64,000 bases of DNA from a virus, in the IMG/VR virus record IMGVR_UViG_3300044612_002737, positions 1-64,000 of that record. One strand, written 5' to 3'. The notes under the pieces are model-generated. The model saw nothing but the letters and a program-made list of their open reading frames with translations. It was not told where the DNA came from and did no database searches. A program made the translations under genes and the position numbers. Shown here piece by piece: positions 522 to 54,654 of this stretch (within the stretch, counting starts at the first letter, position 1; each line of letters starts with the position of its first letter).

Positions 522-1388
522 CTAGCGGGCAGCCTCGCGAGCCGCTCGCATGCGGTCGACCATCGCCGTGGCCGCGGGACATGCCGCGTCCGCACGCTTG
601 CGGGCGGCGGAGCCGAGCAAGCCGTGCATGGCGAGGTAGTAGCCGCGACGCTTCGCGCCCTTCGCGGTGCCATTGCAGCCGCCGCAATGCTCGCACGACA
701 CGTCGGCCGCCTCTGACAGGCAGAGCCGAAGGCCGGCCGCCGCGTAGGCGGCATCGTCGGCCTTGCTGCGGGACGCCACGAACGGACGCCAGCCGCGCGC
801 CTCAGCCTCTGCCACGTCAGCGGGGCTGCCGCACGACGCCATGAACAGGGCCGCCCACTCCGCGGGCAGGTTGCGCCACTCCGCGGTGTAGCCGGTGTGA
901 GACTTCGTGCCGATTAGCACGGTCTGCCAGACATGGAACGGGACCGCGGATGGGTCCCCTTCCATGCCGATACGGACCTTCGCCCCCGCGAAGAGCCCTA
1001 CCGGGATGCCGACGATACCGTCGGCCGCCCGTCGTGCCGCCGAAGCGTGCGCTTCCGTGAGGCGTGCCTTATTGACGTAGCAGGTCCCCGCGCCGCCACG
1101 AATGACGGACCGGTGCGGGCACGCTTCGGGGCAGACGGCGCCGTCGGCGCCCGCCTTCCATGCGTCCATCGGCGACATATCGGCGCGCATTATGCTCACT
1201 TGCACCATGTCGCCCGTCTTCCGGTTGTCGGACGCGTCCGCGACGCAGTGCGCCGTGACCATGATCGGCGTCCCGTCCAGCCGGCTAGCGCCGGTCCAGA
1301 GGACGACGGTAGACGGGAGCGGTCCCCGTCCGAGGATGCTGCGAGCGGCGCGCTTCCATGCGGGCCGCCACTGCAAGAGACTTGACAT
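522..1388 (-). CDS. Conserved phage protein of unknown function, cysteine-containing
   Basis: A 288-aa protein starting at an ATG preceded by GGTAGGAAGCA. It resembles a family common in phages and plasmids whose N-terminal half reads like WTGASRLDGTPIMV, then an asparagine-lysine-threonine-glycine segment (near residues 55-60), then a cluster of cysteines (VCPEACPH and a later TCYVN). A second cysteine cluster, CEHCGGC, lies near residue 235 and could bind a metal. The family has no assigned function that I know. It is the only gene on the left 1.8 kb, and its 5' side is the hairpin-rich region at 1407-1780, which could therefore be its leader. The call as a real gene is firm; the role is open. 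Confidence 0.75.
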   Translation of the reverse strand: MSSLLQWRPAWKRAARSILGRGPLPSTVVLWTGASRLDGTPIMVTAHCVADASDNRKTGDMVQVSIMRADMSPMDAWKAGADGAVCPEACPHRSVIRGGAGTCYVNKARLTEAHASAARRAADGIVGIPVGLFAGAKVRIGMEGDPSAVPFHVWQTVLIGTKSHTGYTAEWRNLPAEWAALFMASCGSPADVAEAEARGWRPFVASRSKADDAAYAAAGLRLCLSEAADVSCEHCGGCNGTAKGAKRRGYYLAMHGLLGSAARKRADAACPAATAMVDRMRAAREAAR

Positions 1389-1406
1389 TGCTTCCTACCT
1401 TCACCC

Positions 1407-1780
1407 CTAGCCGGCGGCCGGCGGTATTGTCGGCAGCCGCTAGACGGTCCGAAGGGTCGACGGTGTCGGCGCTTCGGACCGGCTAGCCGCTTGTCAGGCG
1501 GCTAGGGTGTCGGTCACTCCCACGCTACGGGCGATGCACGCTACCGGTAGCCGTGCTATCGCTTTCCATGCACCGCAGGCTCGCCCCTTTCGGGGGTCGT
1601 CGCCGCTCAGCCTGCACGGGCTAGCGTGGGAGTCTCCGCTACGTGGGAGCATTGGACGGCCGCGCGGGGGCGGCTAGCATTGCGAAAGAACGGGCCGACA
1701 CGCTACGGGCGCGACCCCCTACCGATAGCGGGGTGGGCGCTTTCGGCCTTGCGGCCGGCTAGCGTCTCGGGTTGATGCTT
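1407..1780. ncRNA. Multi-hairpin, CTAG-rich structured region
   Basis: This gene-free stretch contains at least six strong inverted repeats: CGGTCCGAAG (1445-1454) with its complement at 1472-1481; CTAGCCGC (1483-1490) with 1498-1505 around a 7-nt loop; a 12-bp stem 1516-1527/1622-1633 that encloses two further hairpins (1531-1562 and 1575-1615); and weaker ones at 1709-1740 and 1737-1764. The tetranucleotide CTAG, normally rare, recurs many times. The nested layout looks like a branched RNA or a structured origin. Which strand is transcribed is unknown; it could be the leader of the leftward gene at 522-1388. Confidence 0.45.
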
Positions 1781-1915
1781 ACCCTTTATGCCGCTACGGT
1801 ATGGCTGTCAAGCCTTTATCGTCGCGGACCGGATTTGCCGGGATCGGGAGCATCGGGGGGTGTGAAGCCGTGGCGGCCGGGCCGCTCGGCGTCGGAACGT
1901 TACCGTTCCCACACT

Positions 1916-3191: not shown

Positions 3192-3253
3192 CCCACCCGT
3201 AAACCTACGCAAGCGAGGGCTTACGGGTGGGTACGGCCCGAAGGCGGCCGTAC
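3192..3253 (-). repeat. Twin-hairpin unit, copy 1
   Basis: Two adjacent stems: CCCACCCGTAA (3192-3202) with 3221-3231, then GTACGGCC (3231-3238) with 3246-3253. The second stem and the lead-in GGGGGAAGTGTCCC are repeated almost exactly at 3502-3578. It lies between two minus-strand genes. Confidence 0.7.
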
Positions 3254-3261
3254 CCCTTGCG

Positions 3262-3513: not shown

Positions 3514-3578
3514 CCCGTCCCGATAACAGCGGCCGGGCCGTTGGCATTGGGACGGGTACGGCCCGCGGGCGGCCGTAC
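3514..3578 (-). repeat. Twin-hairpin unit, copy 2
   Basis: CCCGTCCC (3514-3521) pairs with 3549-3556, and GTACGGCC (3556-3563) pairs with 3571-3578. The first stem differs in sequence from copy 1 but keeps pairing, which suggests that the structure rather than the sequence is conserved. Confidence 0.7.
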
Positions 3579-3587
3579 CCCTTGACG

Positions 3588-5379: not shown

Positions 5380-5892
5380 TCAGTCGGCGCGCACGAAGTA
5401 CAGGAAGACCTGCGTCGCGGCGCTGTCGGTGCCCGTGGCCTTCGTCACGGTGAAGCGGAGGCTCTCCACGTCGGTCGCGAACGGGTCGACGGTGTCCGCG
5501 GTTTGGACGTGGGTCGACACGAGCTTCGGCGTGTTGAGCGTCGAGGCCGAGACCGCGAAGGTCTGGATCGACGTCGCCACCGCAGCGGCGCTGATCTTGC
5601 CGACGGCGTAAGTCACGTTGCCCGACGTGGTGCCCGTGCCGGCCGGGACGATCTGCGTGCCGGGCAGGATGCGGATCTTGTAGGGCAGCGAGAACGTGAA
5701 CGTCACCGCAGACGTCGTGGACCCGCCGTCAGGCAGCGAGATCTCGGCGCACACGACACCGGAGGCGTCGTAGGACTTGAACGCGACGGTCGCGTTGGCC
5801 GTCGCGGCCTGGGCCTGATGGCCGTTGAAGTGCTCGGGGATGACCTCCCCGTAGCGGATGAACTTCCGAACGATGTACCCGTATGCAGCCAT
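5380..5892 (-). CDS. Beta-rich probable virion protein
   Basis: A 170-aa protein rich in Thr, Ser, Ala and Val with alternating hydrophobic residues (SAVTFTFSLPYKIRIL, TYAVGKISAAAV), typical of small jelly-roll decoration or fibre proteins. The ATG follows a strong AAGGAGGTAGGTC. It lies on the same strand as the head operon (6793-12334), separated from it by the small plus-strand genes. It resembles in style the small virion proteins at 38000-39808. Role inferred, not shown. Confidence 0.55.
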   Translation of the reverse strand: MAAYGYIVRKFIRYGEVIPEHFNGHQAQAATANATVAFKSYDASGVVCAEISLPDGGSTTSAVTFTFSLPYKIRILPGTQIVPAGTGTTSGNVTYAVGKISAAAVATSIQTFAVSASTLNTPKLVSTHVQTADTVDPFATDVESLRFTVTKATGTDSAATQVFLYFVRAD

Positions 5893-27259: not shown

Positions 27260-30200
27260 ATGATGGCGAACCCGCAGCTCGACAAGTTCCTCAAGGAAGC
27301 CGCAGCCCAGAAGGCGGCGACCCAGGCTCCTGCCGCGGTCAAGCCCGTCGCCGCGGCGCCCAAGCCCCCGGTGCTCGCCGTTTCGCCTACCGCTCCAGTC
27401 AAGGCCGCAGCGGCTGTAGAGCGTAGCGCCCCCAGTGCTGAACCTGTAACCCCCTCGGCCGAGGACGTCAAGAAGGCCGAGAAGATGCGCGCAGATCTTC
27501 TCGAGGAGCTGCCGCTCGAGGACTTCTACAAAGAAGCGGCACGGGTTCCTCTCACGGACATCGCCGTCGAATCCTACGCGCGCAAGACCAAGCTCCCGGT
27601 AGATCGGTTCACGTCGCTCGCAGGCGCTCAGGGCATCGACGTCGAGGACATGGCGCAGAAGGCGCGCGAGGGCGTTCCGTTCGCCGAGTACCGCCGCACC
27701 CGTGACGGCGTCATCGGGTTCAAGCCGGCGGCCGAGCGCTTCACCGAGCTGGATCGTGTCGCATCGGACTACCAGACCGCCGAGCGTGGCGAGGCGCCCC
27801 AGCGCACCATCGGTATCCAGAAGGCCCAGGAGACGACCACCAGCCTTCCCGTGTTCGGCGAGGGCTACGAGGTCGGCGGCACCACCCCTGATGAGATCAT
27901 CGAGACGACGAAGCCCGGCGAGCACCAGTACAGCATCGCCGCGCAGTTCATCGACTCGTTCGAGAAGGCGAACCCGGATGTCGTCAGCCTGACCGATATG
28001 TACGGTCAGAACGCCGGCCCCGGCAACACGCAGAAGTGGATCGAGAAGTACGTCAAGATGCAGGTCCGAAACCGCGGTCTGACGGCGGCGTCGGAGGACA
28101 TCGACGAGCAGATGGGCAAACTGCGTCGCGACGCGGTCTACTACATCCTCTCCAAGAAGACCATTGGGCAGTGGACGCCCGGCGTCTTCGTCAAGGACGT
28201 GCAGATCACGGACGCTGAGCGGGCGAAGCCGCTCGGCACCGGAGAGGGATTCGGCGCGGGCGTGCGCGACACCTTTGCCGCTATGGCCCCGAACGTCGAG
28301 ATCGTCGGCTTCAACAACAAGGGCCAGGCCGTCGTCCGTCAGGAGAGCCCGGCCGGTACGGCGCTGCGCCTGCTCGACGTCCTCGGCGTGTCGCCCGTCG
28401 GCAAGGTCAAGGGTGTGCCGGTCGTGATCCCCGGCCAGTCTGCGATCTCGGGCCTCATCACCAAGGACAAGGACGAAGGTTACCTCGAGGCCGCGCTGCG
28501 CGGCGTGCAGACCGGCGCGACGTTCATCGACGCGGCGCTGGACGAGACGAAGGGTCGGTCCACGCCTGTGCGTGCGGCCGCGGGCCTCGCGGCGCTCGTG
28601 CCGACGGTCCTCTACCCCGACGTCACCGGAGCCGCGGAAGGCGCGTACACGGCGGCGAAGGCGTACCGTCGAGTTCTTCAGGATCGCAAGATCGCGAAGG
28701 CTGCGGCACCGCTGCTTGACGAGCTGGTCGCCGCGCTGAAGGCCGGCGACTACGAGAAGGCCACCAAGGTTGAGTCGGCCATCCGGTCGCACCCCGAGCT
28801 GAGCAAGGGCAACCACGGGGTCATGCAAGCGCAGATGAGCATGGACGCGCAGGTCGTCGAGAAGCTCAAGGCGATGAACCCCGAGCTCGCCAGTCTGACC
28901 CCGACGCTCGGGGACGAGCTCATCACGGTCGGCGTGAACCAGAGCCCTGAGCTGGCCGAGGCCATCTACGGCGAGGCGGTCAAGGGCTACCCGTTCCTGC
29001 ACTTCTCCAAGAAGGCCCCGGAGCTGGCGGCCCGGTCAGAGAAGGAAGGCATCGGGCCGACGCTCGAGGCTTACGTCAACTCCGGCGACTTCGGCCGCCA
29101 CTTCCAGCGCATCGAGCGCGCCAAGGCGGCGTTCCTCAAGGCTGCGCCGAAGAACTCGGCCGAGGCCATCGACCAGGCAGTCAGCGGTCTCGCGGCCAAC
29201 CTTCGTGCCAAGAGCGCCGACGTGCTGCGCCTTGGCGGAGCGCCGGCGGCGGACGCTCCGCGATACGACCGACTGGCGAAGCTGCTCGAAGACAACAAGG
29301 CGGCCATCATCGCTGACCCGAAGGCCGCTTTCGGGAAGGACGGTGTGCTCCGCCAAGCGATCAAGGCCGACCCTGTTGTGGGCGCAGACGACGCCCGTGA
29401 GTTCCGCGCTGCGTTCTACCCGCAGGCCGCGCGTCTGTCGGGCCGCATCGAGGCGCTGAAGACGGTCGACTTCAACACCCTGTACCAGAACGACCTCAAG
29501 GTGTTCGACCGTGCGCGCGAGGCCGTCGAGGCCAACATCAAGAGCCGCATGATGGCGGCGGAGCTCCTCAAGCGTGAGCTCGGGACGCGCGCCAAGATCA
29601 ACGTCGTGCCCACCGAGATCCTCGATGATCTGATGGAGCCGGGGACGGAGCGCCTGTCGGCCTTCGCCACGGCGAAGTTCATTCAGACCATGCAGCAGCT
29701 TCCGAAGGCCGCCGACCGCAAGGCGTGGCTCGCGGCGTTCCAGACCATGGACAAGATGCTCCGTGGTGCGGCGGAGCTCCGTGGCGTGCCGGTCGACACG
29801 TACTGGCGCTCCATCGACATCCGCGTGGTCGACGGCAAGCCCGTGTTCGTGAAGGGTGAAGACGTTGTGTCGGCCCCCAAGGGTCCGGGGCCGTTGGACG
29901 GCTTCGTCGACGTGGCGGACGTCCAGACGGCTGTCGCCCGTCTGCGGGGCGCCCTGGCCGGCACTGACCCGTCGTACCGACTCAAGTCGCTGCTCCGCGC
30001 TGACGGTAGCCAGGCAGGCGGCGAGGTCGCCGTCGGCGATGTGGTCGTGCGCGCCATCCGAAGCCCGCAGCCGGGCGCTCCCTACCGTGTCGAGGTGTTC
30101 GTCGGGGCGCAGCAGAAGGCTGCGTTCACGAGCACGGGCAAGCTCGAGGATGCCATCAACGAGGGTATCGACGAGGCGCAGAACGCGATGACAGGTCGCG

Positions 30201-33200
30201 TCGCAGCCGGCGAGCCGGCCATGCGCGAGGTCGTGGTTCCGAAGCCCCCGAAGACCGCGGCCCAGGCAGCGGCGCAGACCAGCCCAGCGGATGCGGCGGA
30301 AGAGGCCGCGGCGGTCGACAGTGTGGCGGCGACGCCCTCGGCGGCCCCGCTCCACCCCAAGACCGAAACGGTGGTCGGTGGTCTCGACCCCGCGCTGAAG
30401 GCGGACCCCGATGTGGTGTCGCGCATCCTTGCGGCGGTCGACAAGCTGAAGGCCGGGTCGAAGCTTCCCCCGCCGCCGAAGGGCGCGAACAAGGTGCTCA
30501 TGGGCGCCGTGCGCGAGGAGCTGCTCAAGAGCGGCGTGCTCGTGAAGCTCGACGACGGCTCGGTCGTGAAGGCCGGCACGCTGCCGGAAGACGTGAAGGT
30601 GGCGCCGACGGCCGCCCCTCCCGCGCCTGCGCCGACGGCCGCCCCGACGGCTCCGCCCGTGGCGCCTACGCCCGCCGCGACGGTCTCGGTTGAAACAACC
30701 ATCGCGCGTCTCGTGGGGGCCTCCGCTCCGGGGGCGAAGGCCGAAGTCCCCGCGGCGCTCGACCGCGCCGCGGCGGACTGGGGCGCGAAGCATTCCGGCA
30801 AGGACTGGGTAATCGACCCCAAGAGCGGTGTCCCCTTCCCTAACACTCCCGCATCTATGTGGGCGAGCGGGGCGGAAGACCCGGCTTCTATCCGCGCGTT
30901 CGGTGCGGTCGAGCCCGGCATCCTCGGGCACGGAATGGGAAGGCCCAGCTCGCTACGTACCGCAGTAGCCGACCTACTCGGCATGTTCCAGAACGGGCTC
31001 ACTCCGGGGGTGGGCCTTGGGGCCAGGTACGGAGAGCCGGCGCTGTACACCGGCGAGATCAACGTCCGCGCAGACATGGGGCAAGCGCTAGACACAGGGT
31101 CAGCGGCGTACCGCCAAGTGCCCTTCATCTTGGTGGGGCGTCCAAATACAACGATGTTTACGGGAAAGCTGCCTGAAGTTGGCGCGGTTCTCGTCAACCC
31201 TGCGCACCCCGAGATCGTTGACGAACTGCGCGCGGCTGTCCAGCGCGTCCGCCCCGACGTTCAGGTGGGCCTGTTCAGTGAAGCTGATAGAGTTGTCGCG
31301 CGCATGAAGCAGGCCGCCCCGACGGCTCCGCCCGTGGCGCCCGCGCCTGCGCCGGTTGCGTCGGCCTTCCCCGTCAAGGCCGTCGAGCCCGCGCCCGCGA
31401 CGAAGATCGACGCCGACGCGCCTGCGGCGGACCGCACGGTGCGCGTGGCGCCGGCTTTGGCGGACGAAGCCTCGCTACAGGCGTACAACCAGTCGATCCG
31501 GGCGCAAGACACCGGTGCCGGCATCAGCCTCGACCGCGACACTCTCGCCGCGGGCGACAACATCATGTATCGCCCCGACCGCGCGTACCGGTTTATCGGA
31601 GACGCCGGGTTCAAGGACTTTGAAGCCACAGGGTTGGTGCGCGCCAAGCAGGACACCAAGGCCGGGTACGAAGTCCCATACTTCATGACAGGCAAGACCT
31701 CGGGACGCTACGCGGCGCGTAGGGGCCGCCCCGAGTACGTGGTCGAGATGCCGATCACGTCCGAGTGGCGCGGTGGCGGCGACTATGTCCACCCGCCCGC
31801 CGACCCGAAGCGGACGGACGGTATTCGTGTGTTCAAGCGAGAGGCTGACGGTTCGTACACGGTCATTCTGGACAACATCGGCGATCAGGCGCTACTCACC
31901 CAGAAGACCGCCGCCGAAGCCGAGGCTCCGGTCTTCCAGCGCGTCGCAGAGGAAGTCGCGCCGCCACCCGAGGAGACGCTCGAGGAGCTGACGGCGCGCC
32001 TATCTCGTGACGCCGAGGACCTGCGCGCGGCAGAGATCCGCGCAGAAGAGGAGTTCGCCGCGGCACAGGCAGAGCGTGAGCGCGCACTGGCCGGGCGTAT
32101 CGCGGAAGACCGCCGCGCTGCCCGTGCCCGTGAAGCCGCGCCCCCCGCCGAAGAGGCAGCCGCGGAGCCAGTGATTCAGCGCGCTCCCGCCGCCGAGGAG
32201 CCGCTGCCCGCCGTCCGCAAGGCAGAGGGCTTCCGCGACAAGAACAGCGTCAACGCCGGCGTGTACGAGGTCGACATCGGCGGCAAGACGCGCCGGTTCT
32301 TCCGCGATAGCAAGGAGGGGTTCTACCCGCGCAGCTTCGTCGAGGACGTGCCGACGAGCGCCGATACGCCGGTGTTGCCGTTCCTTGGCGACACCATCGA
32401 AGACGCGGTCAAGGCGCTTCAGCGCATGCACGGCGCGGAGGAAGCGCCGGCTGCCGCCCGTGCCGCCGAAGAGGTGGTGGCGGAAGCCGCCCCTGCGGTC
32501 GAGCGCGCTGTTGAGGAAGCGCCCGCCGCAGCCAAGGCCGAGGAAGCAGGCACCCGCACCCGTATCCAAGAGCTGGAAGCCGAGGTCGAGCGGCTCGAGC
32601 CGTTCACCACGGCGACACCCAAGCGCACCAACGTCAAGAAGGACAGCTTCACTGTCGAGATCGCAGGGAAGAAGATCCGCCTCGAGAACGACGGTGATAG
32701 CTGGCTCGACGTTGCTACGGGGAGCGAGCTGGGGGAGACCGCAGACGGAGCGGTTGGGCTGCTTCGCGAACGGCTTGTCGACTACCCGTATGCGCGGGCG
32801 CAGCGCGAGTTGAGCAGCCTCCGGCGCACTGAGCGCGCAGCGGCTGAGACAAAGGCGGCCGAGGAAGCAGTAAGCGCAGCCCCCACTCAGCCCTCCGGTA
32901 TCACGACGGTGGCCGAAGCGCCCGTTGTTCGCGAAGAAATCGTCGCTCCGCCCGCGCCGCCGGTGAAGGCCGAGCCCACGGTCGACGAGCTCCAGGCCAC
33001 GGTTGCGCGGCTCGAGCCGTTGCGTGACGCAAAGATCAAGCGGACTGAGGTCTCGAAGGCGGGCTTCACGGCCGAGGTAGCGGGACAGCAGGTCCGCGTC
33101 GAGAAGCGCGGCGACAACTGGGTCAACGCCGCGACGGGACGCAACCTCGGGGACAACGTCACCGAGGCGACGGAGTCTCTGCGCACGGAGTTCGTGCTCA

Positions 33201-36200
33201 AGCCCTACACGCAGGCCCAGGACGCGCTGCGCAAGCTCGGGCAGGTCCAGTCGACCGCAGCAACCGTGTCGTCTCTCGAGGACGCGCTCTCCGGGGTGAA
33301 GAAGATCAAGACCCAGAAGGACGCGCTGCGTTTCTTCGACGTCGCCGAGCAGCTCGCCCTCGACGCGAACGAGAAGGCCCAGATCTACGAAAGCCTCGCG
33401 CAGAAGCTCGAGATCATGGCCGGTCAGGCCAAGAGCGAGCGTGCGGCTGGGGAGCTCGAGACCCTTTCCATCCGTGCGCGCGACGAGGTGACCGCGATTC
33501 GGCCGGCGGCGGAGACCGCGCCATCGGCGGTAGCGGCGGCGGCTGACGCGCTCACCGAGGCGCAGCGCCACGTACAGGCCGTCACGAACATGCGCTCTTT
33601 GACCCACCGCGCTCAGGTTGAGCGGCCTGACGGCACGTTCCTCATGTTCGGCACGGCGCAGAACGGCGTGTTCACCCCGGCGTTCGCGTTCCGCGCGTTC
33701 GAGGGCGTCAAGCCCTCCGAGATCCTCGAGGTCGTGTACGACCAGATGCGCGTGTCGCCCGACACTATGGTCGCCGCGCGCCGCGAGGCCGAGGCACTGC
33801 TGGAAGGCCAGACGCCCATCGTTCGCGAGTTCCCCGCGAACAAGTACGCCAACGACGCAGACCTGAAGTTTGGCCCGGGCCTGCGCCAAGTCCGTCCCGC
33901 CCAGGCGGGCGGTCCGCAGGTCGTTACCGGCGCGTTCAAGCCCGGCGGTGGCAGCGGTCTGGCTGGCACGCAGTCGATCATCGAGCTGGCTGCGAAGACG
34001 GCTGACCCGACCACGTTGCTGCACGAGGGCGCGCACTTCATCCGCAAGTCGATCCTCGACACCGAGGACATGGACAACGTCACGGCGTGGCTCAACAGCA
34101 TGGGCGTGAAGGTCAACCACGAGTTCGGCGAGTTCGTCGGCTCGGCGGATGACATCGAGCTGGCCGAGGAGATGTTCGCGACGGCGTTCGAGAAGTACGT
34201 CGTCACGGGCAAGGCACCGACGCCTGCGCTCGAGCGCGCGTTCGAGCTGGTCAAGAACGCGTTCGCCGGTGCGTACCGCTGGATGAAGTCGGACGCTGCG
34301 AAGGAGCTCTACGGAGAGGACGCGCTGTCTCCGCAGGTCACGGCAGTGTTCAACCGGTACTTCACGGCGGTGCCGCAGAAGCCCATCGAGTCGACGTTCG
34401 ACATCATCGTCCGCGAGACGCGCGGCGCGAAGACCTCTGACGCCGAGGGCGCGCTCGACGTGCTGGCCCGCGAAGCGACGCGAAAGGGCATGCCGAAGAC
34501 CGCTCGCGAAGACCTCGTGAAGAAGATCGCGGCCCTCAAGCTCTCCGACGATGTCCCGAGCGAAACGGTGTTGCTCGAGTTTCCGGCTCCTGTGCTCGGC
34601 AAGACGGAGTGGACGAAGGGAGACATCATCGAGCTTCAGGCCGAGGTGGTGCGCCGGCGCAGCCAGATGGCGGTCGTGCCGGTGCGGCAGGCGCTCTTCG
34701 GTCAGCCCGAGGAAGAGAAGGTCACTGAGAACATCTACGCCGCGCTCGCGGAGCGCGAAGAGGGTGGGCTCGCCGCGGGAGCACGCGGCATCGCTCGCGG
34801 AATGGCGAAGCTCGTCCTGGGTGGCGACATTGTCGACGAGCGCGGGACCCGTGCGCTGCCCGAGGTGTTGCGCCGCGATCTCGACACTCCTGCACGCATC
34901 ATCGAGACCACCATCGGTGACTCCGTGTCGGTCCTGACGCAGTCGACGCGCGACAACGACCCGTCGTTCATGTTCCGCTTCTTGGCGGGCGAGAACCTTC
35001 GGTTCAAGTCGGGTCGCCGTGTCCTGTCGTCGGGCCATGAGCACATCACAGGCTTCTTCGACCTGTACCGCAACCAGTACGCGTCCATGACGCGTGAGGA
35101 GCAGGCGCTGCTCCAGGAGTGGGCGCAGCTCCTGAACACGACGCCGAATCCTGAGAACCTGCGCAACCCGCAGACGATCTCCGAAGCGCTCGCGAGCGGG
35201 GCGTTCCCGCAGAACCTGATGAACGTGCGCAACTTCGCCGATCTCGAGGCCCAACGCAAGGCCAAGGCCAACGCGATGGTCGCAGCGCTCGAGAAGTTCA
35301 TCGACCTGGGCGGCAGCGGCGAGGGCAACATCGGTGGCCAGCTTCGCAAGGCCATCAAGGACGCGGCGGGTGAAGGTTCCCAGATCGCCTTCAACGAGTA
35401 CCGCTTCGCTGAAGTGCTGCTCTTCCTGTCGGGGTCGACGTCTCGCCGTGGCGTTCGGTTCCTTCCGGTCGACAAGACGTTCACGAAGGACCAGCTCGTC
35501 GAGCAGGCGAGGGTTCTCCTCACTGACGCTCAGCGTATCTACGGCGGCGAAGACGACCCGCTCTTCTCGCGCCGTCTGTCTATTCTCGTTGCGGCTTACG
35601 GCTCCAGCCGGCGAGCCAAGGCCGAGCTCGCGGCGCTGGGCGCCGTGCTGACCGCAGAAGAAGCGCACGCGTTCAAGGGTTGGACGCTCGGCTACGACAT
35701 CTCGCCGGAGATGTCGGCGCAGCTCGAGCTGGTGAAGAACAAGTTCGGGTTGAACGCGAAGTTCATCAACGAGACGATCCTCGGCGACAACGTGTACGTG
35801 CCTGCGCAGGCCCGTGCACGCATGGCTGACGCGCTCGCCAAGGCGCAGTTCAACAACGCGAAGCTCACCCCGACGGGCGACCTGTACCAGAAGGTCTGGA
35901 CGTACATGAAGAAGCGCATGACCCGCGGTGCGTTCGCGCTCCGTCAGCGCTACTTCTTCGTGAACACCATCGACCACTTCAACCAGATGTACCTGCTGGT
36001 GGGCTTCGCGCCGGCCGCAGCGTCGTCGGCCCGCCTGCTGCTTCAGGGCCTACCAGTCAACGTCTTTGGTCAGGGGTACGAGACTTTCATCCGTCTCGCC
36101 AACCGTGCGGGGATGGGCGACCGTGCGGCCATGGAGCGTTTCCGCGACCTGCTCAGCCGCGGCGGCGACGAGCTGGCGGCACGTATCGGCAGCGCGCTCT

Positions 36201-37990
36201 CGGTCTCCAAGTACCGCATCGACGTGAACGACATCCTCGAGGGTCGCGACAAGCTCTTGCTGGTCGGCGGCAATGTCTACACGGCGCGCCAGCTCCGCGA
36301 TACGTTCGTGGCTGAGGGGATCTTCTCGAGCTTCGACACTCGGCGTCTGGCTGATGGCGTCCGCATGGACGGCAACATCTTCGCGCGTGAGCTGGCGCAG
36401 ATCTCGGGCAGCCCCAAGAGCAGCGGTACGTTCGTTGACGCGGCCTCGCGCCTGATGGATGGCGTGCAGGACGTCACGGTCGACGTCGTCGACGACCTTT
36501 CCGACGCGTGGGCGGAGCGCGAGCGTGTCGGCGCGGTCATCACGCTGATGGAGACTGGAGTGGACGCACGCGCTGCGTGCCGCGTCACCGTCGACGCGCT
36601 GTACGACTACAGCCAGTCCATGACGAAGAGGGATCGCTCCTTCCTCGTCGGCACGGTGCTCCCGTTCTGGGCCTTCCAGAAGAACGCGAACCAGCAGTTC
36701 ATCAACGTGATGTTCAGCCCCTACGGCGCCTACCGCATGATGGCGCTCCAGCGCCTGCGCGAGGGGTCGGTGACGCTCGCGTCCGAGCTGTACTACGGCT
36801 ACATCGGCGGCGAGCTTGGCCTCGACGTCGACAACATGCCGCAGGACATGCAGGACCTCTACTACGCCATCATGACGAGGGCGCACGAGATCTACGGCGA
36901 CGACCTGCCCGACAACGTGCGCATCGGTCTGCGCATCGCGCTGACGGGTCGCGTCGGTGAGGTGGTCGACGGCAAGTACTACGAGCTCGACACGCGCCTC
37001 ATCGAGATGATGCGTTCGGGGGGTCTCGCCCCTGGCGGCAAGTTTGGTGGCGCCGGCATGGCCGACTACATGCTCGCCGCGCCGAACAAGTCCGGGCTGC
37101 CGTCCTACGTTCGCGACCGGTTCGGAATGGTCGCGCCGCAGCGCCGCAACGCGCTGGTGCGCCACTACACCGCGCTCATGGGCGGTGCGAACGAGGACTA
37201 CTTCTACTTCATGCTGCCGGAGTCCAGCGTCGAGACCGCGTACAAGCACACCGCCACGCTGCTCGGCGGCGCGTTCCTCACCGCCGGCGCGCTCAGCCCC
37301 GAGTGGGTGGGCATCCCCGGGGTGGACATCCTCGCCGGCGGCGCGGACGCCATCGGCCTCGGCGACATCGGCCGCGCGCTCCAGCCGGTTGTTGACCTCG
37401 AGCGCTCTCCGGTGATGGGCCTCGCGCTCGGCATGTACTCGGAGCGTGGCTACCCGCAGCGTCTCCACCCCAAGGTGGCGGCGGCACTTCAGCGCATGAC
37501 GAACATCCCCATCCTGCGCGTTCCCGCGAAGATGGACCCGTTCATGGGCGGCACGCTGCCGGACACGGACGAGGCGTTCCGGGCGCGCCTCGAGGCGGCA
37601 AACGCCGTGCAGGATGGTATCGTCGGCGGAACGGACGAGGCAGGCAACCCGACGGACCTCGTTCAGATCCTCGGCGAGGACTACGTGCGCATGGTGCAGG
37701 AGCTCAACAGCAAGGACCTGCCGGCTGACGTCATGGCGGTCGCGAAGGAGGAGCGGTTCTACCTTCCGCCCGGCTTCATGTCGCTGAGCTTCGAGAACAG
37801 CCCGCTCGGCGAGTTCAACCGCGAAGCCCTGCGCTGGGACCAGACGTCGAAGGAAGGGGCGGACCCTGCGGGGCAGGCCGCGTACTTCACGCGCGTGCTT
37901 CTCGGCACCGACGTCGTTCAAGTCGCCCCCTCGCGCACGGCTCAGCAGGAGGAGCCGGTGCGTTATACCAAGACCCGCGAGCCCATCTAG
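27260..37990 (+). CDS. Giant modular virion protein (3576 aa) with zincin-like site
   Basis: The product takes 17 percent of the window. The start is an ATGATG pair after a GAGGG site. Order seen: Ala/Pro linker (residues about 10-70), helical body, then Pro/Ala linkers framing a compact module (about 1170-1350); a second module (about 1400-1530, MYRPDRAYRFIGDAGF at 1436); Glu/Arg/Ala coiled segments; three copies of a small beta module (about 1657-1720, 1772-1855, 1910-1993); an HEGAH site (2255-2259) with a later EEMFATAFEKYV, the layout of zincin-like peptidases in phage polyvalent proteins; and a long helical C-terminus with GTVLPFWAFQKNANQQF near 3122-3150, a pattern of large phage ejection proteins. 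It likely enters the cell with DNA. Enzyme activity is inferred. Confidence 0.75.
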   Translation: MMANPQLDKFLKEAAAQKAATQAPAAVKPVAAAPKPPVLAVSPTAPVKAAAAVERSAPSAEPVTPSAEDVKKAEKMRADLLEELPLEDFYKEAARVPLTDIAVESYARKTKLPVDRFTSLAGAQGIDVEDMAQKAREGVPFAEYRRTRDGVIGFKPAAERFTELDRVASDYQTAERGEAPQRTIGIQKAQETTTSLPVFGEGYEVGGTTPDEIIETTKPGEHQYSIAAQFIDSFEKANPDVVSLTDMYGQNAGPGNTQKWIEKYVKMQVRNRGLTAASEDIDEQMGKLRRDAVYYILSKKTIGQWTPGVFVKDVQITDAERAKPLGTGEGFGAGVRDTFAAMAPNVEIVGFNNKGQAVVRQESPAGTALRLLDVLGVSPVGKVKGVPVVIPGQSAISGLITKDKDEGYLEAALRGVQTGATFIDAALDETKGRSTPVRAAAGLAALVPTVLYPDVTGAAEGAYTAAKAYRRVLQDRKIAKAAAPLLDELVAALKAGDYEKATKVESAIRSHPELSKGNHGVMQAQMSMDAQVVEKLKAMNPELASLTPTLGDELITVGVNQSPELAEAIYGEAVKGYPFLHFSKKAPELAARSEKEGIGPTLEAYVNSGDFGRHFQRIERAKAAFLKAAPKNSAEAIDQAVSGLAANLRAKSADVLRLGGAPAADAPRYDRLAKLLEDNKAAIIADPKAAFGKDGVLRQAIKADPVVGADDAREFRAAFYPQAARLSGRIEALKTVDFNTLYQNDLKVFDRAREAVEANIKSRMMAAELLKRELGTRAKINVVPTEILDDLMEPGTERLSAFATAKFIQTMQQLPKAADRKAWLAAFQTMDKMLRGAAELRGVPVDTYWRSIDIRVVDGKPVFVKGEDVVSAPKGPGPLDGFVDVADVQTAVARLRGALAGTDPSYRLKSLLRADGSQAGGEVAVGDVVVRAIRSPQPGAPYRVEVFVGAQQKAAFTSTGKLEDAINEGIDEAQNAMTGRVAAGEPAMREVVVPKPPKTAAQAAAQTSPADAAEEAAAVDSVAATPSAAPLHPKTETVVGGLDPALKADPDVVSRILAAVDKLKAGSKLPPPPKGANKVLMGAVREELLKSGVLVKLDDGSVVKAGTLPEDVKVAPTAAPPAPAPTAAPTAPPVAPTPAATVSVETTIARLVGASAPGAKAEVPAALDRAAADWGAKHSGKDWVIDPKSGVPFPNTPASMWASGAEDPASIRAFGAVEPGILGHGMGRPSSLRTAVADLLGMFQNGLTPGVGLGARYGEPALYTGEINVRADMGQALDTGSAAYRQVPFILVGRPNTTMFTGKLPEVGAVLVNPAHPEIVDELRAAVQRVRPDVQVGLFSEADRVVARMKQAAPTAPPVAPAPAPVASAFPVKAVEPAPATKIDADAPAADRTVRVAPALADEASLQAYNQSIRAQDTGAGISLDRDTLAAGDNIMYRPDRAYRFIGDAGFKDFEATGLVRAKQDTKAGYEVPYFMTGKTSGRYAARRGRPEYVVEMPITSEWRGGGDYVHPPADPKRTDGIRVFKREADGSYTVILDNIGDQALLTQKTAAEAEAPVFQRVAEEVAPPPEETLEELTARLSRDAEDLRAAEIRAEEEFAAAQAERERALAGRIAEDRRAARAREAAPPAEEAAAEPVIQRAPAAEEPLPAVRKAEGFRDKNSVNAGVYEVDIGGKTRRFFRDSKEGFYPRSFVEDVPTSADTPVLPFLGDTIEDAVKALQRMHGAEEAPAAARAAEEVVAEAAPAVERAVEEAPAAAKAEEAGTRTRIQELEAEVERLEPFTTATPKRTNVKKDSFTVEIAGKKIRLENDGDSWLDVATGSELGETADGAVGLLRERLVDYPYARAQRELSSLRRTERAAAETKAAEEAVSAAPTQPSGITTVAEAPVVREEIVAPPAPPVKAEPTVDELQATVARLEPLRDAKIKRTEVSKAGFTAEVAGQQVRVEKRGDNWVNAATGRNLGDNVTEATESLRTEFVLKPYTQAQDALRKLGQVQSTAATVSSLEDALSGVKKIKTQKDALRFFDVAEQLALDANEKAQIYESLAQKLEIMAGQAKSERAAGELETLSIRARDEVTAIRPAAETAPSAVAAAADALTEAQRHVQAVTNMRSLTHRAQVERPDGTFLMFGTAQNGVFTPAFAFRAFEGVKPSEILEVVYDQMRVSPDTMVAARREAEALLEGQTPIVREFPANKYANDADLKFGPGLRQVRPAQAGGPQVVTGAFKPGGGSGLAGTQSIIELAAKTADPTTLLHEGAHFIRKSILDTEDMDNVTAWLNSMGVKVNHEFGEFVGSADDIELAEEMFATAFEKYVVTGKAPTPALERAFELVKNAFAGAYRWMKSDAAKELYGEDALSPQVTAVFNRYFTAVPQKPIESTFDIIVRETRGAKTSDAEGALDVLAREATRKGMPKTAREDLVKKIAALKLSDDVPSETVLLEFPAPVLGKTEWTKGDIIELQAEVVRRRSQMAVVPVRQALFGQPEEEKVTENIYAALAEREEGGLAAGARGIARGMAKLVLGGDIVDERGTRALPEVLRRDLDTPARIIETTIGDSVSVLTQSTRDNDPSFMFRFLAGENLRFKSGRRVLSSGHEHITGFFDLYRNQYASMTREEQALLQEWAQLLNTTPNPENLRNPQTISEALASGAFPQNLMNVRNFADLEAQRKAKANAMVAALEKFIDLGGSGEGNIGGQLRKAIKDAAGEGSQIAFNEYRFAEVLLFLSGSTSRRGVRFLPVDKTFTKDQLVEQARVLLTDAQRIYGGEDDPLFSRRLSILVAAYGSSRRAKAELAALGAVLTAEEAHAFKGWTLGYDISPEMSAQLELVKNKFGLNAKFINETILGDNVYVPAQARARMADALAKAQFNNAKLTPTGDLYQKVWTYMKKRMTRGAFALRQRYFFVNTIDHFNQMYLLVGFAPAAASSARLLLQGLPVNVFGQGYETFIRLANRAGMGDRAAMERFRDLLSRGGDELAARIGSALSVSKYRIDVNDILEGRDKLLLVGGNVYTARQLRDTFVAEGIFSSFDTRRLADGVRMDGNIFARELAQISGSPKSSGTFVDAASRLMDGVQDVTVDVVDDLSDAWAERERVGAVITLMETGVDARAACRVTVDALYDYSQSMTKRDRSFLVGTVLPFWAFQKNANQQFINVMFSPYGAYRMMALQRLREGSVTLASELYYGYIGGELGLDVDNMPQDMQDLYYAIMTRAHEIYGDDLPDNVRIGLRIALTGRVGEVVDGKYYELDTRLIEMMRSGGLAPGGKFGGAGMADYMLAAPNKSGLPSYVRDRFGMVAPQRRNALVRHYTALMGGANEDYFYFMLPESSVETAYKHTATLLGGAFLTAGALSPEWVGIPGVDILAGGADAIGLGDIGRALQPVVDLERSPVMGLALGMYSERGYPQRLHPKVAAALQRMTNIPILRVPAKMDPFMGGTLPDTDEAFRARLEAANAVQDGIVGGTDEAGNPTDLVQILGEDYVRMVQELNSKDLPADVMAVAKEERFYLPPGFMSLSFENSPLGEFNREALRWDQTSKEGADPAGQAAYFTRVLLGTDVVQVAPSRTAQQEEPVRYTKTREPI
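30637..30666 (+). repeat. 30-bp direct repeat, left copy
   Basis: A perfect 30-bp repeat of 31312-31341, encoding Pro/Ala linker residues (PTAPPVAP). The two copies are 675 bp apart in the same frame and bound the first inserted module of the giant protein. Confidence 0.8.
31312..31341 (+). repeat. 30-bp direct repeat, right copy
   Basis: Exact match to 30637-30666. The DNA between them has a lower GC third-position bias than its surroundings (for example CTA, ACA, AAT and GGA codons near 31085-31170), consistent with an acquired segment. Confidence 0.8.
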
Positions 37991-51385: not shown

Positions 51386-51823
51386 ATGAACACCGACCTC
51401 ATGTTCTCCTCGGCCACGGACCAGTGGGCGACGCCTCAGGCGTTCTTCGACCAGTGGAACGAGATCTTCCGGTTCACGCTTGACGTGTGCGCGGACGCCG
51501 ACAACGCGAAGTGCGCTCGGTACTTCACGCGCGAAGACAACGGGCTGGCGCAAGACTGGGGCCAGGACGTGTGCTGGATGAACCCACCCTACGGCCGAGA
51601 GATCGGGCGCTGGGTGGCGAAGGCGTATCGGGAGAGCCGGGCCGGCGCGACCGTCGTCTGCCTGCTTCCTGCGCGCACGGACACGGCGTGGTGGCACGAC
51701 TACATCATCCCGATGGCGAAGGTGACGTTCATCCGCGGTCGGCTGAAGTTCGGGGACGCCACGAGCGGTGCGCCGTTCCCGTCTGCGGTCGCCGTCTTCT
51801 ACCCACCGAAGGTGGTCCCGTGA
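51386..51823 (+). CDS. Dam-type DNA N6-adenine methyltransferase
   Basis: A 145-aa phage Dam-family enzyme that methylates adenine in DNA with S-adenosylmethionine. The active-site motif NPPYG is near residues 68-72 and the preceding WATPQAFFDQW is the family's start. Length is short, as in phage Dam proteins of this group. It overlaps the polymerase start (GTGA), so the two are translated together. It could protect phage DNA or mark new strands. Confidence 0.85.
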   Translation: MNTDLMFSSATDQWATPQAFFDQWNEIFRFTLDVCADADNAKCARYFTREDNGLAQDWGQDVCWMNPPYGREIGRWVAKAYRESRAGATVVCLLPARTDTAWWHDYIIPMAKVTFIRGRLKFGDATSGAPFPSAVAVFYPPKVVP

Positions 51824-54654
51824 GCTACGACCCACGAACCTGCGGCGCCCGTTGCAACGAGTGCCCGCTGGGGCCGAACGGCACGTTCCGTTCAGGCCAC
51901 TGGCAGCCTGTTGCACCTGAGTTGCATGACGGCGCGACGGTCATCGCCGTCGCCGAGATGCCGAGCCACGACGAGGTCGGCTTCGGCCGTCCTCTGTCCG
52001 GGCGCAGCGGGGGCGAGTGGAACCTCGCGCTGCTCGCCGCCGGGAAGAAGCGCTCCGACGTCGACCTGACGCACGTCGTCGCGTGCTCGGCCGGCACGGA
52101 CAAGAACGCGTGGGAGAAGCTGACCAAGGCTCTCGACAAGGAGAACCGTCGGCGTCTCGCACAAGCGCAACCCCTCATCCCCGATCCTATCTCGTGCTGC
52201 CGACCCAGGCTCCTCGAAGAGACAAGTCGTTACGAGAACATCATCACGCTGGGCCGTGCCGCGGCCAACGCCCTGACGGCGAAAGCGCAGTCGGTGTTCG
52301 CGCTGCGCGGTGGTCCGGTGTGGGTGGACGAGCACTATCAGGCCCTCATGCAGACGCCGCTGGCGGGCGAGCAGAAGCCCGACGGAGCGGTACGCAAGGT
52401 GTTCCCCACCCTGCACCCCGGCTTCGTCCAGAAGAGCCCAGGCTGGCGTGCCACGATGGTGGCGGACCTCTCGAAGGCGCTGCGCTGGTTCGCGGGTCAG
52501 CTCCGGTGGACCGAGCCGGTGCGCTACTTCAACCCGACGCCAGACGAGCTGCGCCGCTTCCTCTCGAACATCAGCGCGCCGTTCTGGGCCTACGACCTCG
52601 AGACGGACGGCATCGAGGCGCTGACGTGTCAGGTGCGGTCCATCGCCATCGCACACCCCGACCTCAACTACGAGGGGCGGGCACTGCGCGAGGGCCAGAT
52701 CGAGGCGCTGCGCTGCGGTGTGGTGGGGCTCAACATCCTGTCGGGCGACGGGTTCACGCGCTTCTACTCGGCCGAGGACGAGGCCGAGATCCACGACATC
52801 CTGCGCGAGTTCTTCCTCGACCCGACGAAGGTCAAGGTGGGGCACAACGCCGGCTACTACGACCGGCAGGTCGTCGAGCAGTGGCTCGGCGTGACGCCGA
52901 AGCCCATCATCGACACGCTGTTCGCGGCGCGCTTCCGGGCGCCTGACCTGCCCAAGGGACTGAAGACGGTGGGCTCGGTGCTCACCGACGTGGACCGCTG
53001 GGAGACCACGGAGAAGGGCGAGAGCCTCGCGCACGGCAAGGTCGACGACTGGGACCGCCTCGCCTACAACTGCACCGACAGCAGCGTGAACGCGCGCATC
53101 GTCGTGCCGCTGCTCGACGCCGCGGAAGAGGCCGGCGCGTTCCGCGACCTGAACGAGGAGCTCCGGCCGCCGGGCTGGGAGAGCCGGCGCTGGGACCTGC
53201 ACGAGGTCGACCATGCCACGCAGGAGATGTGCGTGAGCCTCCACAAGATCGGCGTCTACGTCGACCAGGAGGCGCGCTTCAAGATGGAGATCGAGACGCG
53301 GGCCAGCGTCGAGAAGCGTGAGAAGAACCTCACGACGCTCGCGCAGGCAGTCGGTGTCGCGCGGCTCGACATGAAGAGCGCGGGCGCCAGCGACGACGCG
53401 GACGTCGAGGGCATCCGGCCCGGCAGCGCTGACCAGATCCGCGACCTGCTCTACGAGAACTGGAAGCTGGGCATCCCACCGAACATGGAGGCGCGCGACT
53501 TCTACACCGAGTCCGGCATGCCGGGCACCGGCGACAAGGTGCTGCGCGGCCATCTCGCGGGCGGCCGGCTGACGAAGCCGCAGGAAGACTTCATCCGCGA
53601 GCTGCGCCTGTACCGGCGCGAGAAGAACAAGATCCTCGGCACCGTGCTCCTGCCGCTGAACCTCACGGCGCACGACCCGAAGAAGGGGATCATCTGGCAC
53701 CACGACGGGCGCGTGCGCTCGACGTGGAACGCCCACGTCACGGCGCCTGGGCGGCTCTCGAGCAGCGGGCCCAACCTCCAGAACATCGGCAGCCGGAAGG
53801 GGCAGGGCAAGCTCAAGACCCTGTTCGCGGCGCAGCCCGGCCACCTTCTCGTCGGCGCGGACCTCGACCAAGCGCACCTCCGCATCACGGCGAGCTACTG
53901 GAAGATCCCGCTCCTGCTCGAGTGCTTCAGCGAGGGGAAGGACCCGCACAACACGCTGGCGTACCAGGTCTTCGGGGACAAGTTCAAGGCGGCGGACGGC
54001 TGGGGACCCGAGGGCTACAGCCTCTACCGCAAGCCGCCGGGCGGCATGGCGAAGGCGATGCGCGACGTCATGAAGACGTTCCGCTACGCCTCGATCTACT
54101 GGGCCGACCCGATGACGGTCTGGCAGGTGCTGACCTCGACCGAGGCCGACAACGGCGAGATGCCGTACCTGCACATGACCTCGAAGGAGGTCCGCCACTT
54201 CCACGAGACGTGGCTCAAGACCGAGCCCGAGTGGATGCAGGCGTGGGACGCGATGCTCTCCATCTACCGCCACCAGGGCTACATGGAGGAGCCGGTCTTC
54301 GGTCGGCGCTCCGGCAACCTCACGGACGGGAAGAAGAACGAGGTGGTCAACTTCCCCATCCTCGCCGCGGAGACGAGCATCATGCGCGTCGCCGAGCAGC
54401 ACATCATCCACGCCTTCCCGTGGGACCTCGACCGCCGGCTCGGCCTCATCCACCAGTGCCACGACTCCGTCGCCATCGAGGTCGAGGCGCCGCCGGGCCT
54501 CGAGAAGTGGAAGCCGACGAAGGGCGAGCCGCTGCCGCCGGAGCTCGAGCGGATGCGCAAGACCCTCGAGGAGTGCATGACCGTGAGGGTTCCCGGCTGG
54601 GAAGTGCCGTGCACCGCCGAGGCATCCGTCGGCAGAAACCTCAAAGAGGCTTGA
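51820..54654 (+). CDS. Uracil-DNA glycosylase / DNA polymerase I fusion
   Basis: A 944-aa protein starting at GTG 51820. Residues about 1-225 are a family-4/5-like uracil-DNA glycosylase: EMPSHDEVGFGRPLSGRSG (47-64) corresponds to the motif GEAPGxxED..GRPFVGRAG, and LHPGFVQKSPGWR (199-211) is the second motif; C12, C15, C89 and C126/127 could hold a 4Fe-4S cluster. A 3'-5' exonuclease begins with YDLETDG at 258. The polymerase has motif A ADLDQAHLRI (D681), motif B RDVMKTFRYASIYW (748) and motif C HDS (881-883). It would copy the phage genome, and the extra domain may remove uracil from it. Confidence 0.85.
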   Translation: MSYDPRTCGARCNECPLGPNGTFRSGHWQPVAPELHDGATVIAVAEMPSHDEVGFGRPLSGRSGGEWNLALLAAGKKRSDVDLTHVVACSAGTDKNAWEKLTKALDKENRRRLAQAQPLIPDPISCCRPRLLEETSRYENIITLGRAAANALTAKAQSVFALRGGPVWVDEHYQALMQTPLAGEQKPDGAVRKVFPTLHPGFVQKSPGWRATMVADLSKALRWFAGQLRWTEPVRYFNPTPDELRRFLSNISAPFWAYDLETDGIEALTCQVRSIAIAHPDLNYEGRALREGQIEALRCGVVGLNILSGDGFTRFYSAEDEAEIHDILREFFLDPTKVKVGHNAGYYDRQVVEQWLGVTPKPIIDTLFAARFRAPDLPKGLKTVGSVLTDVDRWETTEKGESLAHGKVDDWDRLAYNCTDSSVNARIVVPLLDAAEEAGAFRDLNEELRPPGWESRRWDLHEVDHATQEMCVSLHKIGVYVDQEARFKMEIETRASVEKREKNLTTLAQAVGVARLDMKSAGASDDADVEGIRPGSADQIRDLLYENWKLGIPPNMEARDFYTESGMPGTGDKVLRGHLAGGRLTKPQEDFIRELRLYRREKNKILGTVLLPLNLTAHDPKKGIIWHHDGRVRSTWNAHVTAPGRLSSSGPNLQNIGSRKGQGKLKTLFAAQPGHLLVGADLDQAHLRITASYWKIPLLLECFSEGKDPHNTLAYQVFGDKFKAADGWGPEGYSLYRKPPGGMAKAMRDVMKTFRYASIYWADPMTVWQVLTSTEADNGEMPYLHMTSKEVRHFHETWLKTEPEWMQAWDAMLSIYRHQGYMEEPVFGRRSGNLTDGKKNEVVNFPILAAETSIMRVAEQHIIHAFPWDLDRRLGLIHQCHDSVAIEVEAPPGLEKWKPTKGEPLPPELERMRKTLEECMTVRVPGWEVPCTAEASVGRNLKEA

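Follow-up and report, generated by a model that had tools for sequence, protein, structure and literature searches.

A predicted structured 5′ leader with tandem three-way junctions upstream of a DUF7227-type phage gene

The non-coding stretch upstream of gene 522-1388

The window analysed here (the whole 64,000-nt stretch, taken from a virus record 67,205 bp long) contains, near its left end, a stretch (1407-1780) described in an earlier note as rich in CTAG and in nested hairpins. The neighbouring gene, 522-1388, is read from the minus strand, and its start lies 18 bases to the left of that stretch. The features discussed below are the following:

522-1388, minus strand: gene for a 288-aa protein of the DUF7227 / phrog_2554 group (PHROGs E 2e-51)
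1389-1776, minus strand: predicted 5′ leader of this gene (~390 nt), between the predicted promoter and the start codon
1391-1398, minus strand: ribosome-binding site (RBS) GTAGGAAG, upstream of the ATG at 1388
1399-1513, minus strand: domain D, a predicted four-way junction beside the RBS
1517-1632, minus strand: unit B, a second copy of the unit A junction, with the same fold (12-bp P1 including 1516/1633; P2 1566-1619; P3 1531-1562; J23 AAA 1563-1565; J31 CCG 1528-1530)
1657-1694, minus strand: linker block (unit C) between A and B, CCCG(U/C)UCUUUC...CUAGCCGCC..CGCGCGG
1695-1770, minus strand: unit A, a predicted three-way junction (P1 1760-1770/1695-1705; P2 1744-1757 with a GCAA loop; P3 1709-1740; J12 GC, J23 AAA, J31 CCG)
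1783-1811, minus strand: predicted promoter (-35 TTGACA 1806-1811; 17-nt spacer with ATACCGTAGCGGCAT; -10 TAAAGG 1783-1788)

The 12-bp perfect stem that the earlier note reported, pairing 1516-1527 (ACTCCCACGCTA) with 1622-1633 (TAGCGTGGGAGT), is present in the sequence, as is the inner stem 1531-1562 with its GCTACCGGTAGC; the second inner stem also lies within the 12-bp stem, but it spans 1566-1619 rather than the proposed 1575-1615. CTAG, estimated at about six occurrences, is in fact found seven times in 1407-1780, versus 41 times in all 64 kb, and is rare elsewhere. Three of the seven form the step from P1 to J12 (CUA followed by GC) in unit A, unit B and the linker block, and the other four lie in domain D. 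When 255 windows of 374 nt were sampled from the genome, a perfect inverted repeat of at least 12 bp turned up in only 4, which places the stretch above chance. Two features were overlooked in that first reading: the tandem repetition of the nested hairpin, whose second copy, 74% identical over 46 nt, occupies 1695-1770, and the extension of the features to the promoter at 1783-1811.

The stretch had been described as lacking a gene, and this holds: the sole sense-strand open reading frame inside it (52 aa, 1494-1652) fails coding checks. It shows four synonymous and six non-synonymous codon changes, versus 37 and 5 in the real gene 522-1388, which is under purifying selection; on these changes and its missing Shine-Dalgarno (SD) sequence, it was rejected as a leader peptide. 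A reading of the region as tRNA or tmRNA was also rejected. An intrinsic terminator was likewise rejected: none is found inside the leader on the minus strand, which makes premature termination unlikely.

Tandem junctions, linker block and domain D

The nested hairpin of the earlier note corresponds to unit B. Both units follow a common plan, consisting of CUA, GC, P2, AAA, P3, CCG and UAG, in which P1 ends in CUA/UAG and P3 starts with GCG/CGC. The junction letters and the closing pairs are identical in the four copies that are available, i.e., A and B of the window and of a close relative (L005), and each of them caps P2, on the minus strand, with a GNRA loop (GCAA, GCAA, GAAA and GCAA), with one change between genomes from GAAA to GCAA. 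The same fold was computed independently for A and B in the two genomes, and both units fold as modules in the leader RNA that begins at the predicted start. The pair probability of P1 in unit A is 0.74-0.95, one G.G mismatch excepted. A free, span-limited fold of the whole L005 leader did not recover the unit A shape. As the units are seen in two genomes only, the identity of the junction letters could partly reflect a recent duplication, though the stems have diverged.

The structure, its duplication with compensatory changes and its position were established by computation. When the A and B copies of the two genomes are aligned (MAFFT, with the P2 tip of unit B shortened to allow alignment), 94.6% of the cells are paired and 13 of 30 pairs are changed on both sides; structures slid along the same alignment give 22-44% paired cells and 0-2 such double changes, and 500 shuffles never reached as high a value. 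Since the structure supplied to this comparison was derived from these same sequences, an independent test was run with a covariance model based on the two A copies alone. This model recovers unit B in both genomes, with 45.8 bits (E 1.8e-7 in 210 kb) for the window and E 1.5e-4 for L005. The compensatory changes expected of a structured leader are thus found both between A and B and through the independent model. By contrast, a sequence alignment of the whole leaders of the window and L005 contains 4 compensated pairs, 3 kept as wobbles and 12 broken, several of the latter being alignment shifts. Between-genome covariation, taken alone, would therefore be modest evidence and, with so few compensated pairs, the structural case rests on A versus B.

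The 38-nt linker block extends to a distant relative, L019, where it aligns within the leader in the corresponding position and with the same orientation, ahead of a homologous gene ~28% identical over the matched part. An 18-mer of this block with one free position is exact only in the window and L019 (~1.1 Mb compared) and has one mismatch in L005. In a P1 helix that we propose from our own reading of the sequences, two variable pairs differ across the three genomes and stay standard (U.G/C-G/A-U and G-C/G.U/C-G). The block is possibly a third, weaker junction, although its three-way fold is not the minimum-energy one. Domain D is predicted in both the window and L005, with few informative changes between them. 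A weak copy of its hairpin 1445-1479 (86% over 37 nt) is found at 5472-5508, inside another gene.

The distribution of the element was studied in relatives gathered via the terminase (76 loci) and via the gene family. Units A and B are seen only in the record of the window and in L005: a model (R1) that scores unit A at 86 bits rises above background, over 20 related viral records, only in these two. The refuting outcome named in the earlier note, that no related genome conserves the pairings, was looked for and did not arise, although the full element occurs in a single close relative. Most relatives with the gene have no such leader; for instance, the homologues in L004, L031, L022, L041, L104, L105 and others have short leaders or lie within operons, without the module, and a search of the relatives for CTAGC...TAG junctions gave no clear further element. 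A pattern scan of viral contigs returned the unit A type in the contig of L005 (L009) and in L010, the unit B type in L009 only, and the linker block in L009, in the contig of L019 (L122) and in L123. The L010 match lies inside a coding sequence and the L123 contig has neither a gene homologue nor a model match, so both were discarded as chance. The A-type pattern gave five matches in 84,980 genomes, with a best model score of 15 bits and none convincing.

Database searches were in line with this narrow distribution. No match in the window, L005 or L019 reached a gathering threshold in Rfam 15, the best sub-threshold scores being far below the cut-offs; a mir-341 match (22.5 bits, plus strand, in a search with E up to 10) was dismissed as fortuitous, the sequence involved being a long GC-rich hairpin. 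Among 50,697 phage records, no close DNA match extended beyond 4% of the query, and that part lies inside the gene. The literature search found no paper describing the leader element, and no paper of the library searched mentions DUF7227.

A proposed minus-strand leader and its alternatives

The predicted promoter is 13 nt outside the first helix, and transcription would start near 1776, a few bases ahead of unit A. Its -10 is a poor match and the promoter is not listed by a consensus scan, but it is near-identical in L005, and promoters with TTGAC and ACCGnnnYGG in the spacer were found six times upstream of genes in the relatives L029, L041 and L074, versus 1.7 expected. In the contig of the close relative (IMGVR_3300008113_000820, L003/L005; protein 98% identical), promoter, leader and RBS are all retained, the RBS being identical. 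The predicted promoter, branched modules, RBS and start codon are collinear on the minus strand, with no transcription stop between them, and the stems change by compensation. The region probably makes a folded RNA, and the branched RNA and the leader of 522-1388, two of the three guesses in the earlier note, are both supported and become one and the same thing. We regard it as rather probable that the region is the minus-strand, 5′ untranslated, cis-acting leader of 522-1388, composed of the tandem A and B junctions, the linker and the four-way domain.

Tandem modules with GNRA tips also resemble a self-standing folded RNA, and the gene can do without this RNA, since its family occurs widely where no such leader is present. 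This could indicate an independent small RNA of ~380 nt whose targets, in trans, would be RNAs or proteins of the host or the phage, its position between promoter and gene being incidental. We consider this unlikely, as there is no terminator separating such an RNA from the gene, the structure continues up to the RBS and a block of the leader is retained upstream of the same gene in L019.

Of the two strands, the plus strand folds better. Its folding energy is -213.7 kcal/mol versus -194.1 kcal/mol for the minus strand, an excess that comes mostly from domain D; z-scores against dinucleotide shuffles are -3.8 and -2.6, respectively, and the ranks among the 255 windows of the same genome are 2 and 74. 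As only the plus strand stands out among these windows, stability alone cannot single out the minus strand. Additionally, palindromes bearing CTAG are typical of DNA sites. The region could, consequently, encode a plus-strand antisense RNA or act as a DNA-level structure, such as extruded cruciforms or a region bound by a phage protein. However, the plus strand lacks a conserved promoter (its TTGACA at 1382-1387 has not been retained in L005), the GNRA tips exist on the minus strand only, the boundaries of the structure match the predicted minus-strand start site and the RBS, and most of the wobble-type changes counted, with two exceptions, pair on the minus strand only. From the promoter, the boundaries, the loops and these wobble changes, we infer that the sense strand is the minus strand, and we judge a plus-strand or DNA-level reading to be quite improbable.

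The remaining guess of the earlier note, a replication origin (or, equally, a partition site), would suit the abundance of inverted repeats in so long a non-coding stretch, but it is very improbable, as the locus has no skew turn and no AT-rich stretch, its repeats are two diverged branched units and not iterons, its conservation is of the RNA type (GNRA loops), the stretch is freely replaced in relatives, and another stretch, at ~149-242, is a better candidate on account of its TAACG repeats.

That other stretch (149-242, up to ~360) is intergenic, contains repeated GTTACnnGTTAC / TAACGGGTAACG words, is ~70% conserved in L019/L122 beside the same gene and is possibly an origin or a protein-binding region. 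In L122, its equivalent is followed, after ~3.7 kb, by the 63.8-59.2 kb part of the window. As this order is that expected if the ends of the record were joined, the genome is probably circular or circularly permuted.

The gene product, a possible function and known systems

Homologues of gene 522-1388 occur in 147 phage records, with no function given in the annotations seen. Of six aligned members, three match the Pfam DUF7227 family; the protein of the window itself does not. The AlphaFold model of this protein is of good quality (pLDDT 89.7), and a BFVD search with it returns DUF7227 and ‘Gene product 88’ proteins. A PDB structure search with it gave no confident match, the top rows, all weak (Z up to 4.1), being radical-SAM enzymes, viperin-like ones among them. 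The protein has seven invariant cysteines, which makes an Fe-S or zinc enzyme plausible.

Under the leader reading, transcription would begin a few bases ahead of unit A, and the RNA would fold into tandem A and B, with the invariant GC / AAA / CCG core, the GNRA-capped P2 arms and the linker between them. Most likely, the two units would then offer two copies of a binding site, either for a small ligand or for a protein such as that encoded by the gene itself. Unit A would also protect the 5′ end, and the 3′ domain D, beside the RBS, would set the ease of ribosome loading and, with it, of translation. The regulatory effect would thus be exerted on translation or mRNA stability. A sequestration of the SD sequence by the linker, proposed by RNAalifold, was not upheld in the ensemble calculation, and no SD-sequestering alternative fold or switch is predicted for the leader.

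In a more speculative version of the leader reading, which we hold to be unlikely, A and B would act as tandem aptamers and define a new class in phages, either of riboswitches or of protein-binding elements for self-regulation. They would control a DUF7227 protein that is enzyme-like and possibly of radical-SAM descent, sensing, for instance, its cofactor or product. Among riboswitches and other cis-regulatory leaders with tandem modules, the glycine riboswitch and the tandem guanidine-II hairpins are similar in having two copies of a junction module in a 5′ leader, a conserved unpaired core with variable stems and a further domain before the RBS. By contrast, the leader described here has a sequence and a junction unlike every Rfam family and is known only from one small phage lineage. 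As for a switching expression platform, neither an intrinsic terminator nor a clear SD sequestration is predicted.

Two other systems can be compared. The DUF3800 RNA motifs are also three-way-junction RNAs adjoining one phage or bacterial gene family, but the leader scores only 14.9 bits with DUF3800-IX (gathering 36.8, E 3.1), on the other strand, and the neighbouring gene is not DUF3800. In type III toxin-antitoxin systems, tandem structured RNA repeats (ToxI) likewise lie upstream of a gene, that of the toxin. In this case, however, the units are branched junctions of ~76-116 nt, no terminator lies between RNA and gene, and the best, weak resemblances of the protein model are to radical-SAM/TIM-barrel enzymes. 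The gene downstream of such an antitoxin RNA would encode a ToxN/AbiQ-fold endoribonuclease; here the protein is DUF7227-like, and the structure matches listed, all of them weak, do not include ToxN.

A phage leader whose RNA architecture is both defined and duplicated offers a good way into the study of gene regulation in phages and of new classes of RNA. The fold proposed here is precise and testable, as it comprises two modules of 76-116 nt with a fixed core, placed before a widespread phage protein family without an assigned function, and a binder of the leader, if found, would also hint at the role of the protein.

Other inverted repeats are found nearby. A 97-nt hairpin at 2179-2275 has 34-nt arms (88% complementary) and contains CCTAGAATCG..CGATTCTAGG; the segment around it has the longest perfect inverted repeat (18 bp) among the sampled windows. 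Near-identical GGGTACGGCC..GGCCGTACCC hairpins lie between small minus-strand genes at 3229-3255 and 3554-3580. Further along the window are a giant open reading frame of 3576 aa (27260-37990), without a confident Pfam match, and the gene of a family A DNA polymerase (51487-54654; 1055 aa), whose N-terminal part matches the uracil-DNA glycosylase superfamily (Pfam PF03167, E 1.4e-6).
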